Virus record (IMG/VR): IMGVR_UViG_3300035198_000074
Location: 1 to 60,264 of that record
DNA length: 60,264 nucleotides
DNA from: a virus
Reading direction: 5' to 3' (one strand)
The notes under the pieces were generated by a model, which made no database searches, was not told the origin of the DNA, and was given only the letters and a program-made list of their open reading frames with translations. The position numbers and the translations under genes are program-made. Of this stretch, positions 4,211-54,019 are shown in pieces. Positions within the stretch are counted from its first letter, which is position 1. Each line of letters starts with the position of its first letter.

Positions 4211-4308
4211 GTTGGCGGCCAATAGATTTATCGTTGCCGACAGGTAAACAAGGGTTTATAGGAAGTAAGATCGGCATCTTATAAATTCCTTGGCTATTGG
4301 CCGTCAAC
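4211..4308 (+). ncRNA. Predicted pseudoknotted intergenic RNA element, divergent type
   Basis: A 15-bp closing stem (one G-U) pairs 4211-4225 with 4294-4308. Inside, 4235-4240 (TGCCGA) pairs with 4271-4276. Within that loop 4249-4253 plus 4255-4260 (CAAGG, TTTATA) pair with 4280-4285 plus 4288-4292 (TATAAA, CCTTG), an 11-bp second stem crossing the first. This is the same closing-stem-plus-pseudoknot order as at 791-885, but the sequence is unrelated. It ends 13 bases before ATG 4322. Confidence 0.5.
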
Positions 4309-4321
4309 ACAAGAGGTTATC

Positions 4322-40270: not shown

Positions 40271-41227
40271 TTATGATGCTTCACCAGTGATGTAAAGAAC
40301 TCTAACTTCACCTGCGGTGCTTGTCTCATTCCAGATCAACCCGTATCCAAGCACCCCATACCAGGCCATTCCCTTCCATCTACCGTATCCACCAGGGATT
40401 GCGGCACGAAGTTCAGGGGTAAGAACCTCAGCAATGGCCACTCCATCTTCCCCAAATACAAGGCCCTCACCAAGAACTCCACCTGATCCAACTGACTCAT
40501 CCAGTGAATCGGTATTGGTAATCTCGATCCACCTGATCTGCTCCACCATCCCTACCTCGGACTTGAAAAGCACATCGCCAGGCTTCAGCCAGTATCTCCA
40601 TGCCTGAAAATCAGGATCATTCTTGATACCTCTTAGAAGTTTGGTTGTGCCAAGACCAATGTAGTTTCCGGCTTCGTAGAAGGGGATTTTATAAGTGGAT
40701 CGCATTGCGTCCCGAATGGCGCCACAATGGGTGATGTTGAGGTTATTGGTTGCAACCTCCGCAAATGTCGGAGTATCGAATGTTACTGCCGTTGCGGAAG
40801 TAGGCACTGCCCTTACATAAGTCGTCTTGAAAGCGGTAGCCGCAAGGGCGTCATTGACTGCTGCCAACTGATCCTTCAGCCTTCTCTGGACAGGAATTTC
40901 CAGGTCGAATCTCGCAAAATCTTGTGCGAGACTGGTATACTGCACCGCCCTACCAAGCTCTTTAGCCTCAATACCAACTGTCCCGATGGAAATGGTATCC
41001 ACTGGGATGTCGGTATTTTCATCCAGAAGAGCAGAAGTAGGAATAGAGATATTTTTGATTTTGGTGATATTGATGGTATCGCCCATCTTACGACCAAAAC
41101 CTGGCTCTTTGCGGCAAAACTGAGCGATTTCAAAATCGTCAACCGCCGCATACCTTAACTCTTTTGACATCTCTTCACACACCGAATAACCAGTGGCGAG
41201 AGACCCAGTCCATGTAAATGATGCCAT
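40271..41227 (-). CDS. Major capsid protein (HK97-fold, N4-gp56-like)
   Basis: A 318-residue protein with ribosome site AAGGAGGATAGATT. It begins with a helical arm (SVCEEMSKELRYAAVDDFEIAQFC), then GDTINITKIKNISIP and a long middle with ELGRAVQYTSLAQDFARFD, and ends in GRWKGMAWYGVLGYGLIWNE. The length and pattern agree with podovirus N4-gp56-type capsid proteins, and it is flanked by the scaffold and decoration genes. Confidence 0.8.
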   Translation of the reverse strand: MASFTWTGSLATGYSVCEEMSKELRYAAVDDFEIAQFCRKEPGFGRKMGDTINITKIKNISIPTSALLDENTDIPVDTISIGTVGIEAKELGRAVQYTSLAQDFARFDLEIPVQRRLKDQLAAVNDALAATAFKTTYVRAVPTSATAVTFDTPTFAEVATNNLNITHCGAIRDAMRSTYKIPFYEAGNYIGLGTTKLLRGIKNDPDFQAWRYWLKPGDVLFKSEVGMVEQIRWIEITNTDSLDESVGSGGVLGEGLVFGEDGVAIAEVLTPELRAAIPGGYGRWKGMAWYGVLGYGLIWNETSTAGEVRVLYITGEAS

Positions 41228-47759: not shown

Positions 47760-49331
47760 CTACCCTCCATACAGTGATTGTACTGAACTTGCAATTGCTG
47801 CCTTCTTTCTACCTGCTGGTAACTTAATCCTCGCCTCCCTATCCATTTGAAACAATTTAGCTATGCCATGCGACAACCCTGCGGCTGGATGTGAGTTAAT
47901 ATCCCGATTATCAGGCTCATCTGATACCTTGCCACTGGCAGATTTATGATAGTGCCACCCACCTGATAATGCCCTATGGAGTATCTTCTCATGCTTGCTT
48001 ACCACAAACATAGGCTCCCCGCTTCCTATTTCTGATAGTAGAAGCTGCTTCAATGCCTCCTTTCTCGGCCCCCACCTCAACACTCCCCCTTCATATCTGG
48101 TATTTAACTCTTTCTCAATAATGGATGCTGCCGTCTGGGAACTATCAGATGGGTCACGATCCGCAAGAGTAGGATCGCCTAAATCTCGCCACTTAGTGAT
48201 TGCGTGATAGCGGTTCTGAATAAGTGGCTTTACCTGATCATCTAAGAATTGCTTCATCCCATATCCCAATATAGGCGCCCTCAATGTATCTGTGACAATG
48301 AACTTTCCCCTGGGCGTCCATTGAGCAAATACCACAGATGGGTGCATATCTCCATCCCAGAATCTATACGTAGTCTGATTTGGCATAGGGTCAAGGTCTT
48401 TATCAGACCTATGCCAGGGGCCATTATTCTTAGTTGCCTGGTATTCAGGGGTTACCGCAACCCCCTGCTGGACATGGGCAGGTCTACCTACAACCAGTCT
48501 ATCGAGCAAGTCAGGCCGCCCCCGAAGTGATGCTTCCATTGTCTTGCGGTAGACAATATCAATGTGCGGATTCTCTCCTCTTGGGATTCGGAACATCCTC
48601 CTATCCCATCCCCCCTCTTCATAAAACCTTACCCATGTCCAGTGATCTTCGGCAGGATAATTCTCTGTTATCATCCCGTGCCTTCGCTTTACCAATATCT
48701 CTGGTCCATTCCCGAAGTCTGTCCTTACCAGAGCTCCCATCCTCAGTCCCTCCTTGACCTCGGCAGGTGTCAGGCGCTCTTTTCCTCCCAATGCATCCAT
48801 CTTTTCTATAAACTCAGACGCCTCATTCGACATAATTGGATGTCGGAGTGAGGTAAGTCCAATTGTCCACACTTCTTCAGCTATCCCTCTCCCAATTTCC
48901 TCCTGCATGGCTGGGGCAGCTTCCTCCATCCATAGCCCGAATAATTGCATGGATTGTAACTGGTTAAGGTCGTCTGGGGAATCTACCCCAAAAAGGTAGG
49001 CTGTCCACCTTCCTGGAAGTTCTATATATCTGCCACCATCCCTTATAATTAGCATTTTCCGTATTTGGGCTGCGAATGAGTCTGGTTGAGGAAGAGTAAA
49101 GCTCTTAAGAGTGGTTCGGTCAAGGTTTGTCCATGTATCACGCACTATGGCCCAAGGAAGAGGCAGATATTGCTTATCAATAAGCGAGGCCCAGAAAGTC
49201 ATATCCATAATGCCTCCCTGTGTCTTACCTTCGCCTCTGGGGGAAACAATGAGCTTCTCAGGCGCATCGCATTTAATGAAATCCCATTGGGTAGGATTGG
49301 GAAGTAGCTTAACCTGTAATAGTTCAGTCAT
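47760..49331 (-). CDS. Terminase large subunit
   Basis: A 523-residue protein. The ATPase has the variant Walker A SPRGEGKT (about residues 30-37) and Walker B-like LFGLWMEEAA (about 130-139). The nuclease half shows RFWDGDMHPS and DLGDPTLADRD, acidic residues of the RNase H-like domain. It cuts concatemeric DNA and drives packaging into the portal encoded downstream. It overlaps the upstream 60-residue gene by 8 bases. Confidence 0.85.
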   Translation of the reverse strand: MTELLQVKLLPNPTQWDFIKCDAPEKLIVSPRGEGKTQGGIMDMTFWASLIDKQYLPLPWAIVRDTWTNLDRTTLKSFTLPQPDSFAAQIRKMLIIRDGGRYIELPGRWTAYLFGVDSPDDLNQLQSMQLFGLWMEEAAPAMQEEIGRGIAEEVWTIGLTSLRHPIMSNEASEFIEKMDALGGKERLTPAEVKEGLRMGALVRTDFGNGPEILVKRRHGMITENYPAEDHWTWVRFYEEGGWDRRMFRIPRGENPHIDIVYRKTMEASLRGRPDLLDRLVVGRPAHVQQGVAVTPEYQATKNNGPWHRSDKDLDPMPNQTTYRFWDGDMHPSVVFAQWTPRGKFIVTDTLRAPILGYGMKQFLDDQVKPLIQNRYHAITKWRDLGDPTLADRDPSDSSQTAASIIEKELNTRYEGGVLRWGPRKEALKQLLLSEIGSGEPMFVVSKHEKILHRALSGGWHYHKSASGKVSDEPDNRDINSHPAAGLSHGIAKLFQMDREARIKLPAGRKKAAIASSVQSLYGG

Positions 49332-50212: not shown

Positions 50213-50253
50213 GTTATTTCTACCTTAACATACTTCGCCAGTTTTTCAAGGTA

Positions 50254-50630
50254 AATTTTTCACGCCAATTTTCCAAGGTAAATTTTGCATACCAGTTTTT
50301 CCAGGTAATTTTTGTCTCCTAAATTTTCCAAGCAATTTTGTCCACAGAAATTTTCCAGGTAAATCTCGCCCCCTAAATTTTCCCCCAGAAATTTTCAAGC
50401 ACAAATTTTTAGGCCCAATTTTCCAGGTAGAAATTTTTAGGCATAATTTTCTGGACAACAATTTTTCGCCTCATCTGCGAGGTAAGAATTTTTTGGCGTA
50501 TGCAAGACATAAGAATTTTCCGACCTACCTGCCTGGGCAGAATTTTTGCCCCATTTATTTGGACAGAATTTTTGCCCCATTTATTTGGGCAGAATTTTTT
50601 GGCGCATGGCATCTAACAGAATTTTTTGGC
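50254..50630. repeat. Phased AATTTT tandem array between terminase genes
   Basis: At least 21 AATTTT-type blocks (a few AGTTTT/AATCTC) start at 50254, 50267, 50281, 50294, 50307, 50322, 50334, 50349, 50362, 50376, 50390, 50404, 50417, 50432, 50445, 50460, then every 26-28 bases to 50620. The period is therefore 13-14 bases, with a 27-base super-unit (AATTTTCCAGGTA alternating with AATTTTTnnGCC). Frames across it are not preserved, so it is probably non-coding. A packaging (pac) or origin-type binding array is plausible. Confidence 0.75.
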
Positions 50631-50639
50631 GCATGGCGT

Positions 50640-50963
50640 AGAGTTGGATGGGGGGAGACCTTGTTACCATATATATGCTCCCCGACCCAAGGGGGGTATC
50701 CATGGTTTTTTGATTTCCCACTATTCCCATAGATATGGTATGGTATCCTATTTGTCATCATCACTATCCTCCCCCTTCACCTAAACAGGGTATGATAATA
50801 TCTAATTCTGTCTACTTTGACTATAATATCCAAATTAGAAACATACATTATTTTAATAAGTTACAATCCATAATTAAAGTAAATTGTTTTTCCACAATAA
50901 ACCTGCCCGCAAATCCTTTATTTCTGGGCTATGTAGACTTTGCATAGATGCCAAATCTATCTT
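50640..50963. other. Gene-free AT-rich stretch
   Basis: No convincing gene on either strand. One GGGGAG/CTCCCC inverted repeat lies around 50655-50685; the remainder is AT-rich with many TATAAT-like words but no clear promoter. It separates the repeat array from the small terminase gene. Confidence 0.4.
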
Positions 50964-51446
50964 TCATAAGTCAATTTCCTTGCGATCAGTGGCCCGGCGG
51001 GGCGGGATAACCTGGAGAATTATATCTCCTCCATCTTTACCGGTATGTTCCTGGACGTCCCTAAAACGTCCTTTTGCTTTGCCTAATAATTCCGCAAACT
51101 TAGCTCTGGCCGAAAAATCTGGCGTTTCCAGGGTATCAGTGATCTTGCCCCGGAATGTTGCAAAATTGAAACGTGTCGAATTTAAGCCTTCCTTTAATTT
51201 CTCGGCCAATAAATTATCGGAAAGTCCTTTGATTTCGAGAAGTTGGTCGAACTCAATATTAAGTTTCTTTAATCTTCCGTACCCGGCCACAGCCAGAGAC
51301 TGTCTATTTTTCGACATACTCCCAGCATGTTTTTCGCATTGCCAAAGTGGTTTGCCTTGTAAATAGTAGTCAAGGAAACGGCGGTCTTTAAGGCTAAGTT
51401 TGCGTGTACCTATTAGTTTGGGTATATCCGGCGGTGATAATGGCAT
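50964..51446 (-). CDS. Terminase small subunit
   Basis: A 160-residue protein with ribosome site TAGGAGGAGTATACATT. The N-terminal half is helical with LSLKDRRFLDYYLQGKPLWQC and a helix-turn-helix-like pattern. GLSDNLLAEKLKEGLNSTR followed by FRGKITDTLETPDFSARAKFAELLGKAKG is typical of phage small terminases. It recognises packaging sites on DNA. The array at 50254-50630, transcribed after it, is a candidate target. Base composition is richer in GC than that of neighbours. Confidence 0.75.
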   Translation of the reverse strand: MPLSPPDIPKLIGTRKLSLKDRRFLDYYLQGKPLWQCEKHAGSMSKNRQSLAVAGYGRLKKLNIEFDQLLEIKGLSDNLLAEKLKEGLNSTRFNFATFRGKITDTLETPDFSARAKFAELLGKAKGRFRDVQEHTGKDGGDIILQVIPPRRATDRKEIDL

Positions 51447-51499: not shown

Positions 51500-51712
51500 G
51501 GAGATAATGAGTAAATATAATTTTAGATGTTATTGGGCGCATACCGCAAAAATTGTTAGTTTGTGCATAAAATTTTTATCTTTTGTAGAATCAAGTAGTT
51601 AGGCGAGTTATCAACATTTCTACAGGACGTAAATTGTCAGTCTGATGTAAAATGCGACAAGTGACAAAGTTTGCGCTATTGAAATCATTGAGGATTTTTG
51701 TTTGGGGTTGGC

Positions 51713-52045
51713 ATGAGGGTTGCAGTATTAAATGTTATGAAAAATTTAATAAATCTCATTTACCAGCGGGCTGCGGAGCAAAACATAAAGATAGAGTCCG
51801 CACCCTCCCATCGAAGGGATAAAGACCATATTAGTGCAGGCCGCCGCTCGGTTACAATGCCGAATGGCAGAGTGTATGATTACAGGGACACTCTGATCGG
51901 CATTGGCCTGCGACTCAACCTGATAACTCAGGCTGAGTACGAGGAGGCGTTATTGCGCAATCCTCGTAATATGCGCTGCCCTCGATGCGGCAGGGTAACC
52001 GAGAAAGAGGTAGTAACCCAATTTGGGTACTGCCTAAATTGCTAA
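51713..52045 (+). CDS. Zinc-ribbon-tailed hypothetical protein
   Basis: A 110-residue protein from ATG 51713 (GGGG 5 bases upstream; longer starts lack a site). The body is basic and helical. The C-terminus CPRCGRVTEKEV and YCLNC is a zinc ribbon. It is the first gene of the rightward early block. Its DNA contains three nested stems at 51836-51911. Function unknown. Confidence 0.6.
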   Translation: MRVAVLNVMKNLINLIYQRAAEQNIKIESAPSHRRDKDHISAGRRSVTMPNGRVYDYRDTLIGIGLRLNLITQAEYEEALLRNPRNMRCPRCGRVTEKEVVTQFGYCLNC

Positions 52046-52055
52046 GGAGGAGAAA

Positions 52056-52478
52056 ATGAAAGTAATCGTACCACGGAAAGCAGAAGTAACGGTAAAACGG
52101 CCAGACGGGACGGTGGAAACCATCGTCCATCCTAAAATTGACTATTTTACCCCCGCACTTTTTGACCGTTTTCGGCAGGCAATGAAGGACGCTGGGCGAG
52201 GCGCAGCGCTTTCCTACCACAACATCGATGCGGTTGTCGAGATGGAAGAATCCGATTATCAAGGTCGCTGTGAGAGATGCGGTGCGAAGATTGATACTCG
52301 GAAAGCCTACTCCCAAAAAGAGTGGACCAGATTTGGTGGGCAGAAAGTTGGGGTAATCGCCCATTACTGTGACTCCTGCCATAACATTCTGACCACGGTT
52401 GGCGCCGGTGAAATCACAGACATGGAACATCGAGCTGGGTACGTCCCAAGCTACGAACCCTACACAAAGGAGGATTAA
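52056..52478 (+). CDS. Zinc-binding hypothetical protein
   Basis: A 140-residue protein with ribosome site AAGGAGGAGAAA. It opens MKVIVPRKAEVTVKRPDGTVE, has CERCGAKID and HYCDSCHNIL, and ends with an acidic tail. Four Cys and a His could bind zinc. Early nucleic-acid-binding role is possible; family not recognised. Confidence 0.6.
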   Translation: MKVIVPRKAEVTVKRPDGTVETIVHPKIDYFTPALFDRFRQAMKDAGRGAALSYHNIDAVVEMEESDYQGRCERCGAKIDTRKAYSQKEWTRFGGQKVGVIAHYCDSCHNILTTVGAGEITDMEHRAGYVPSYEPYTKED

Positions 52479-52482
52479 TATC

Positions 52483-52761
52483 ATGAAAAAAGGATGGACA
52501 AAAAAGTCATATGATGCGCTGTATTTTTGGATTGATACCACAAAGAGGCCGAAAGTGCGCGAAACTCTATTGCAGGACGGACTCAACGACATTGTAAGTC
52601 GCCTGGAGTCCGCCAAGAACCTCGGAGAATGGTATAAGATTACGCAGGAGGCTGCTGCCGCTGTTGGTCCTAGAGTTGTCGAAAAATCTGCAATGGAAGC
52701 GGAGTTAGCTCTTGATAAGGCCGCCGCTATCGGTCGCAAGGGAGGTACAATAAGAAGGTAA
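52483..52761 (+). CDS. Small helical hypothetical protein
   Basis: A 92-residue protein from ATG 52483 after AAAGGAGGATTAATATC. Helical, with an Ala-rich C-terminus (EAELALDKAAAIGRKGG) and Lys/Arg clusters at both ends. Its DNA includes a CGGACTC/GAGTCCG hairpin (52578-52612). Function unknown. Confidence 0.6.
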   Translation: MKKGWTKKSYDALYFWIDTTKRPKVRETLLQDGLNDIVSRLESAKNLGEWYKITQEAAAAVGPRVVEKSAMEAELALDKAAAIGRKGGTIRR

Positions 52762-52784
52762 AGGGTTGGCTGGATACCCGATAA

Positions 52785-52848
52785 CCAGCCCGTGTGGAGA
52801 TTAACCCACTCCGCACTCCACGAGACGGAGTGACACTTGACGGGTTGG
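52785..52848 (+). ncRNA. Predicted pseudoknotted intergenic RNA element, compact type
   Basis: Closing stem 52785-52793 (CCAGCCCGT) pairs with 52840-52848 (one G-U). Directly stacked, 52794-52799 (GTGGAG) pairs with 52816-52821. In its loop, 52807-52813 (CACTCCG) pairs with 52826-52832 (CGGAGTG) beyond, so the two inner stems cross. Same topology as at 791-885. It sits between two genes, 20 bases before the ribosome site of ATG 52875. Confidence 0.5.
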
Positions 52849-52874
52849 CCAGTACTCCTGGCAGGGAGGAGAAA

Positions 52875-53276
52875 ATGATAATTTATTTAAAAGGGGATCC
52901 CAGTTGGGATATCCCCAAGAATGATCTTGGCGGCCAAGCTGGCTCTGTAGAGAGACGGCCTGACCTTGATCGGGATGGGTACAGAGCTTATGCACTGTAC
53001 CGAGAAAGCCACAACTTTGGCTATCCCCACCCAATAGGTGGAGAAGAAGGCCGCCCTTGCTGCAAGTGCGGCCGCATAACTCCGGTAAGATTACTGGAGT
53101 TATGTCCTGAGTGTGAAGAGGAGCTCAACCTTTTAGAAGAGGTTGAGCTAAAACCCCACGTAAAGAAGTGGGGTAACGTGGAAGAGATTGCTGACCGGTT
53201 TTTACACCGGAAGGCAACTATAGGGGAACTTCGGGCCGCCGTAAATGCGGCCAAGAAGTCCTATAAGGGAGAGTAA
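52875..53276 (+). CDS. Zinc-ribbon protein encoded by hairpin-rich DNA
   Basis: A 133-residue protein from ATG 52875 (CAGGGAGGAGAAA). It has CCKCGRITPVRLLELCPECEEE, a zinc ribbon, near residue 60, and a basic helical end. The DNA contains a chain of perfect or near-perfect stems, for example at 52893-52916, 52978-53001, 53075-53104, 53122-53149 and 53153-53174, plus GAGAGT/ACTCTC at the stop. Coding is supported by the ribosome site and ribbon; a dual RNA role cannot be excluded. Confidence 0.55.
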   Translation: MIIYLKGDPSWDIPKNDLGGQAGSVERRPDLDRDGYRAYALYRESHNFGYPHPIGGEEGRPCCKCGRITPVRLLELCPECEEELNLLEEVELKPHVKKWGNVEEIADRFLHRKATIGELRAAVNAAKKSYKGE

Positions 53277-53304
53277 AACTCTCCTAAAATTTAGAGGTTA
53301 GAGG

Positions 53305-53402
53305 CTCCCCGTAAAGCCTCGACTTAGGCTTCAGCCTCGCCGTGTGGGTGATAGGTTGAAGCCTATTTTTTTATTTAGCTGTCCTATCGGCCATACGGGG
53401 AG
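53305..53402 (+). ncRNA. Predicted pseudoknotted leader with terminator-like stem
   Basis: Closing stem 53305-53313 (CTCCCCGTA) pairs with 53394-53402. 53325-53333 (TAGGCTTCA) pairs with 53357-53365 and is followed by seven T, like an intrinsic terminator. 53350-53355 (GATAGG) within that loop pairs with 53383-53388 beyond it. Competing hairpins GAGGCT/AGCCTC (53301-53320) and AGGCT/AGCCT exist, as in attenuators. It precedes the 53420 gene by a short ribosome-site region. Confidence 0.55.
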
Positions 53403-53419
53403 AGAGGGAGATGACATAA

Positions 53420-54019
53420 ATGAGAACGTTAATTGTCAAATATCAAGGTACATGTAAAAAATGCGGTAAAACTTTAGATATTGGCGAACAAGCTATGTAT
53501 AAAAAATCTATGGGTATTTTTTGTATTGGATGCGAACCCAAAGAAATTGAAGAAATAAGAGCCTTTAGATTGGCTAAGGCTGAAGCGAAGGCTGAGCGGT
53601 ATAAAGAATGGGCAGAAAAAAGAGAACAAAAAGCTTTGGCTCAATTAAATAGCAACCCAGAAATAAGGCATGACTGGGCTTTTATTACTCAACCTGGGTA
53701 TATCCCAACGAGAGCCCGAATGATACAAGCCGATAATAAGGCACATGAAAGTTTACATATTGCTAAAGAAATGAGAAATAAAGCCGAAAATTTACTAAAT
53801 GTTAGGGTTGCGGGAGATGCCGAAAGAAATAGAGAAATCAAAAGACAAGCTAATGATGCGCTCATAACAAAAGGCTCAAAAGTCTATGATCCTGTTTTCG
53901 GGGAAGGAATAGTTTTAAGTATCCATAAAAAATCTTACCGTATCCAGTTTAATACTAAAAGTAATGATGGCCAATTGTTGGTTTATGCCAGGGATAAGAG
54001 TTATATTAAACCATTATGA
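53420..54019 (+). CDS. Zinc ribbon plus DUF3560-like helical protein
   Basis: A 199-residue protein. CKKCGKTL and FCIGCEPKE form an N-terminal zinc ribbon. A long charged helix follows (AKAEAKAERYKEWAEKREQKA), then PTRARMIQADNKAHESLHIAKEMR, which resembles the DUF3560 region. The C-terminal ~55 residues look like a small beta domain (YRIQFNTKSNDGQLL). Probably a DNA-associated early protein. It is the first gene after the candidate attenuator at 53305. Confidence 0.5.
   Translation: MRTLIVKYQGTCKKCGKTLDIGEQAMYKKSMGIFCIGCEPKEIEEIRAFRLAKAEAKAERYKEWAEKREQKALAQLNSNPEIRHDWAFITQPGYIPTRARMIQADNKAHESLHIAKEMRNKAENLLNVRVAGDAERNREIKRQANDALITKGSKVYDPVFGEGIVLSIHKKSYRIQFNTKSNDGQLLVYARDKSYIKPL

Follow-up and report, generated by a model that had tools for sequence, protein, structure and literature searches.

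The window analyzed here is a 60,264-nt stretch of viral DNA from an uncultivated tailed DNA phage, whose minus strand carries genes resembling those for the large (47760-49331) and small (50964-51446) terminase subunits. Divergent from these genes, a series of plus-strand genes starts at about 51.7 kb (Table 1), and its position and neighbors suggest that it is probably an early operon. Paired CxxC zinc-ribbon motifs are found in the sequences of genes 1, 2, 4 and 5, Shine-Dalgarno sequences accompany genes 2 to 5 (genes 2 and 4 have one of 14 nt in common) and are weak in gene 1, and coding-frame scoring ranks the annotated frame highest of the six for all of these genes. GC3 is near 0.5 in genes 1 to 4 and about 0.27 in genes 5 and 6. 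A single-sequence AlphaFold prediction for gene 4 was uninformative (pLDDT 50).

Several other features of the window are worth recording. A degenerate array of AATTTT-core repeats, spaced at 13 and 26-27 bp, lies between the terminase subunit genes (50230-50640) and is a candidate origin, packaging site or stretch of bent DNA. In a 120-nt folding scan, very strong intergenic hairpins appear in the plus-strand operon at 2906-2970 (z -5.7) and 4211-4310 (z -7.8), each with z -6.4 when folded alone, and these are possibly terminators or RNase III sites. A minus-strand gene at 40271-41227 folds moderately lower than expected (z -5.5, -5.2 kcal/mol per 120 nt). A group I intron match at 51639-51821 falls below threshold (20.7 bits against 50) and rests largely on AUAAAGAUAGAGUCC; it has a P7-like 3' strand for which no 5' partner was found by eye, and we judge it to be chance.

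Table 1. Genes, hairpins and spacers at the start of the plus-strand series.
Feature	Position	Strand	Description
Gene 1	51713-52045	+	110-aa zinc-ribbon ORF (CPRCG...CLNC); hairpins saturate its second half (about 51836-52035)
Three-tier hairpin, 76 nt	51836-51911	+	Within gene 1; arms exact; appears in the minimum-free-energy fold
Gene 2	52056-52478	+	140-aa zinc-ribbon protein; conserved in L003, L004 and L026; small folding excess
Gene 3	52483-52761	+	92-aa protein; conserved in L003, L004 and L018; folding excess not significant
Gene 3-gene 4 spacer	52762-52874	+	CACTCCG/CGGAGTG hairpin; folding mildly low (z -1.4)
Gene 4	52875-53276	+	133-aa zinc-ribbon ORF (CCKCG...CPEC); hairpin chain nearly end to end
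Gene 4 hairpin between its two CxxC pairs	53075-53104	+	30-nt element with 12 Watson-Crick pairs and one G-T
Gene 4 perfect hairpin, 10 bp	53122-53149	+	From the stem search
Gene 4 perfect hairpin, 7 bp	53153-53174	+	From the stem search
Gene 4-gene 5 spacer	53277-53419	+	Terminator hairpin 53325-53365 and T7 run 53366-53372; competing fold uses 53383-53402
Gene 5	53420-54019	+	Widespread phage zinc-ribbon protein; without folding excess (z +0.6)

Hairpin density and synonymous codon choice

A first-pass annotation had described 51836-53402 as saturated with around a dozen stems of at least 7 bp, against about three expected by chance. The excess of hairpins is borne out: counting perfect Watson-Crick stems of at least 7 bp with loops of 3-30 nt, we found 11, compared with 1.85 ± 1.36 in 200 dinucleotide shuffles (maximum 6, none reaching 11), so that the chance estimate was generous if anything. 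Intervals of this size in other parts of the window contain 0-9 such stems. Every quoted arm sits where it was placed, and the three-tier stem is exact at each tier (GCAGGCC/GGCCTGC, ATGCCGA/TCGGCAT and CAGAGTGT/ACACTCTG). The individual stems need some correction: those at 52578, 52978, 53075, 53122 and 53153 are perfect over 7-10 bp, but 52108-52128 requires one G-T pair to make 7 bp and 52893-52916 has a mismatch after 6 bp. Imperfect palindromes with at least nine Watson-Crick pairs are also abundant (9 found against 1.5 expected). GC content is raised, as the annotation had it, and measures 0.50 at 52-53 kb against 0.42 on either side. In the 120-nt scan no other 1.5 kb of the window folds as low as 52001-53500, where z averages -2.4 compared with -0.37 over the whole window.

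Synonymous shuffles that hold amino acids and codon usage fixed (n=60, local folding per 120 nt), the check proposed in the first-pass annotation, place folding far below the controls in two genes. Gene 1 folds at -41.0 kcal/mol per 120 nt where shuffled versions average -29.7, which is 11.3 lower (z -6.6, 0 of 60), and gene 4 folds at -48.0 against -34.2, 13.8 lower (z -6.75, again 0 of 60). Genes 2 and 3 deviate little from their shuffles (z -2.0 and -1.5), for genes 5 and 6 z is about 0, and the spacer after gene 4 shows a weaker excess than genes 1 and 4 (z -3.8). Gene by gene, then, the finding narrows from the whole of 51836-53402 to two ORFs and, less strongly, to that spacer. Folded as whole RNAs, gene 1 has z -5.3 and gene 4 reaches -177.7 kcal/mol (z -9.1), mainly as consecutive hairpins, and gene 4 contains 10 perfect stems of at least 6 bp where 2.1 are expected. 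In both genes nearly every 20-40 nt is able to form a perfect short hairpin, and this comes about through codon choices that their proteins do not require.

The raised GC content would fit an account in which chance, base composition or amino-acid sequence explains the stems, but dinucleotide, synonymous and codon-order shuffles never reach the values of genes 1 and 4. These three kinds of shuffle refute such an account for both genes, and we give it almost no credence. A genome-wide stem habit of the phage was likewise rejected, with 50 perfect stems of at least 7 bp in the rest of the window's genes against 49.6 expected, and a genome-wide mutational habit is thus unlikely.

The suggestion in the first-pass annotation of a large structured RNA does not hold up. 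The strong folding of genes 4 and 1 would suit one large noncoding RNA of the OLE, GOLLD or ROOL type that overlaps accidental ORFs, but no covariance model for ornate RNAs of this kind (OLE, GOLLD, ROOL, HEARO) matches at threshold, and Rfam yields no match at gathering thresholds anywhere in the window, its weak sub-threshold matches being to unrelated families. The excess complementarity is confined to short spans, and long-range complementarity is absent. The interval instead holds four ORFs with best-scoring coding frames and zinc-ribbon motifs, three of them with clear Shine-Dalgarno sequences, and genes 2 and 3 are conserved as proteins. We consider a noncoding RNA of this type very improbable.

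Translated genes of the DNA phages that we sampled fold close to their codon-shuffled controls. Our comparison set comprised 508 ORFs from lambda, HK022, T4 (first 50 kb), T7, phiX174, M13 and related viral contigs, mechanically picked, so that some are non-genes, and given 8-15 shuffles each; gene 1 (-11 kcal/mol per 120 nt) and gene 4 (-14) surpass all 508. The strongest comparison excess, -8.9 kcal/mol per 120 nt, is that of a lambda ORF over gene FI (L015 7163-7600). The next, at -8.5, is an ORF of L034 near a gene-5 relative, which we rejected as a hairpin-rich counterpart: its start call includes a hairpin upstream of the likely ATG, and its folding is strand-asymmetric. The loci of gene-5 relatives contain no gene comparable to genes 1 and 4. 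Nothing comparable appears in the single-stranded DNA phages phiX174 and M13, and a signature of that phage type was rejected on this ground. The O genes of lambda and HK022 have a moderate excess. MS2 is the textbook structured coding RNA, and its coding pieces lie at -8 to -10 kcal/mol per 120 nt, values that genes 1 and 4 exceed.

A terminator and a competing fold after gene 4

In the spacer after gene 4, 53325-53333 pairs with 53357-53365 and seven T follow, forming a credible intrinsic terminator that is present in the fold of RNA cut at the T run. This element (53325-53372) goes unlisted in a simple scan for terminators that admits only loops of 3-8 nt. The full spacer has a minimum-energy fold of -54.2 kcal/mol and an alternative centroid of -50.9, and in a competing fold part of the terminator pairs with 53383-53398; CTCCCCGTA at 53305 is moreover the exact complement of 53394-53402. 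We infer a candidate role for the competing fold in read-through into gene 5.

The segment GCTGtCCTATCGGCCAtACGGGGAG is found just upstream of start codons in the window (53378-53401), in L032 (7967-7990), in L004 (5450-5478) and in L030 upstream of gene 5. The copy in the window is shared with L032, where it stands before the gene-5 homolog, and resembles those of L004 and L030. Read by eye, the shared segment in the relatives is a short peptide motif, LTYRLDGE/LSYRPDGE, and from its sequence 53378-53401 looks like a remnant of a peptide of this type. The window's upstream reverse-complement arms (53305 and 53341) were not seen in the stretch of L032 examined.

Relatives, strand symmetry and the origin of the stems

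The genes at this locus differ in how far they can be traced. Gene 2 has relatives in L003, L004 and L026 (61-64% identity), gene 3 has relatives in L003, L004 and L018 (60-73% identity), and the viral contigs contain 15 relatives of gene 5. For gene 1 the viral_contigs search found no relative, and for gene 4 no convincing one emerged; in the searches with these two genes, the match in L002 is limited to a short piece of zinc ribbon. The gene 2 and gene 3 regions of L003 and L004 fold without any excess and lack the stems at 52108 and 52578, and the ORFs of at least 180 nt in L018 show no hairpin saturation. A promoter-like sequence, TTGACAAACC.AA.CGAT.AGGATATAT, is common to L003, L004 and L018 upstream of their gene 2 or gene 3 cassettes.

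Selection for mRNA folding, the other suggestion of the first-pass annotation, fares better and is in part sustained, since it survives the refuting condition set in that annotation: folding in two genes is far lower than in codon-shuffled controls. The excess in genes 1 and 4 is abolished by synonymous shuffles and goes beyond both the 508 phage ORFs and the MS2 pieces, and the G-U share of pairs is reduced about as in MS2. Against it, antisense folding equals sense folding in gene 1 (asymmetry z 0.0) and lies below it in gene 4 (+0.7), so that the sense-strand preference looked for in a selected structured coding mRNA is missing from both genes, while all three MS2 pieces lean toward sense (z -0.9, -1.1 and -3.0), one of them significantly. 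The stems are also more perfect and more local than those of MS2. Perfect 6-bp complementary pairs of segments outnumber expectation only where the span is below about 50 nt, and at spans under 30 nt the counts are 9 against 1.9 in gene 1 and 18 against 2.6 in gene 4; with a similar folding gain, MS2 has a short-span 6-bp excess in one of three pieces. Because the antisense excess is equal, relatives lack the gene 2 and gene 3 stems that were examined and a mutational origin would lead to a similar pattern, we grade selection for mRNA folding in genes 1 and 4 as plausible but unproven.

That mutational origin, in which template switching makes inverted copies, is the main rival and a serious one, whether it merely gave rise to the stems or accounts for them entirely. 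In its neutral form, template switching or quasi-palindrome correction would have built the hairpins in two weakly constrained genes, a prospect that we rate as quite possible. Genes 1 and 4 show the pattern that template switching leaves, which is strand-symmetric, perfect and short-span, and they are the genes without known homologs, whereas the pattern passes over genes 2 and 3, which are conserved. The segment shared with L032, in which the window's upstream arms are unseen, points the same way. Template switching has been reported to make perfect stems in one event (PMC8794818), and in yeast DNA under high transcription a link between quasi-palindrome mutations and RNA:DNA hybrids has been reported (PMC3820800). 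Yet many events would be needed in about 700 nt when the rest of the genome shows none, and the ORFs are still open with their zinc-ribbon motifs intact. Two further tests had no power. The G-U share and the composition of the pairs, meant to tell DNA from RNA level, are similar in MS2. The fraction of the excess due to amino-acid order (0.11 and 0.26), meant to separate copying from synonymous selection, does not do so, because hairpins planted in random coding sequence give 0.07 and 0.11. The results leave mRNA selection and DNA-level inverted copying both viable, and the two may combine as maintenance and origin.

The same strand symmetry could reflect a function of the DNA itself, with the palindromes acting as single-stranded DNA hairpins, for example where replication starts, close to the point of divergence. 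Cumulative GC skew reaches its minimum at about 51 kb, and the moderate excess in the lambda and HK022 O genes is suggestive in that the lambda replication origin lies inside O. Gene orientation nevertheless explains the skew minimum, the stems have no common sequence, phiX174 and M13 lack a comparable excess and the AATTTT array is a more ordinary candidate for an origin. We regard a DNA-level function as unlikely.

Our preferred reading, held tentatively, is that genes 1 and 4 carry a chain of local mRNA hairpins kept for their effect on the mRNA, and that the spacer terminator sets read-through into gene 5. The transcript of these genes would fold into the chain, which would be kept most likely through its effect on decay or translation speed; the terminator and its competing fold would then govern how much transcription passes into gene 5. 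Single stems may originate by inverted copying and be kept afterwards. The broader proposition, that a dsDNA phage writes selected genes at the head of an operon as hairpin-armored messages through synonymous codon choice, as a device for mRNA protection or timing with folding at or above the level of an RNA phage, strikes us as rather doubtful.

Genes 1 and 4 among known systems

Two genes of one region that exceed MS2 offer a compact case in which to ask whether mutation creates extreme hairpin density in coding DNA or selection preserves it, and how such density affects a phage mRNA. Across taxa, local mRNA folding in coding sequences has been reported to differ from codon-preserving controls (PMC7063772, and a survey of dsDNA viruses, PMC3072339). 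Genes 1 and 4 likewise differ from such controls, but more strongly than any sampled phage ORF. The closest parallel in size is found in the Leviviricetes, where the coding RNA of MS2 lies far below synonymous controls to a similar extent and has its G-U share reduced to about the same degree. Unlike MS2, the host of this signal is a dsDNA phage, only two genes carry it, the stems are more perfect and of shorter span and the lean toward the sense strand is lacking.

Template-switch hairpins, as described in PMC8794818 and PMC7202029, are short, perfect, strand-symmetric inverted repeats, as are those of genes 1 and 4, but here the stems are many and run end to end in two genes. The spacer after gene 4 resembles an attenuator-type terminator in its GC-containing stem, U7 run and competing downstream helix (53325-53372), while any ligand or leader-peptide logic is putative and the competing arms are known from the window alone.
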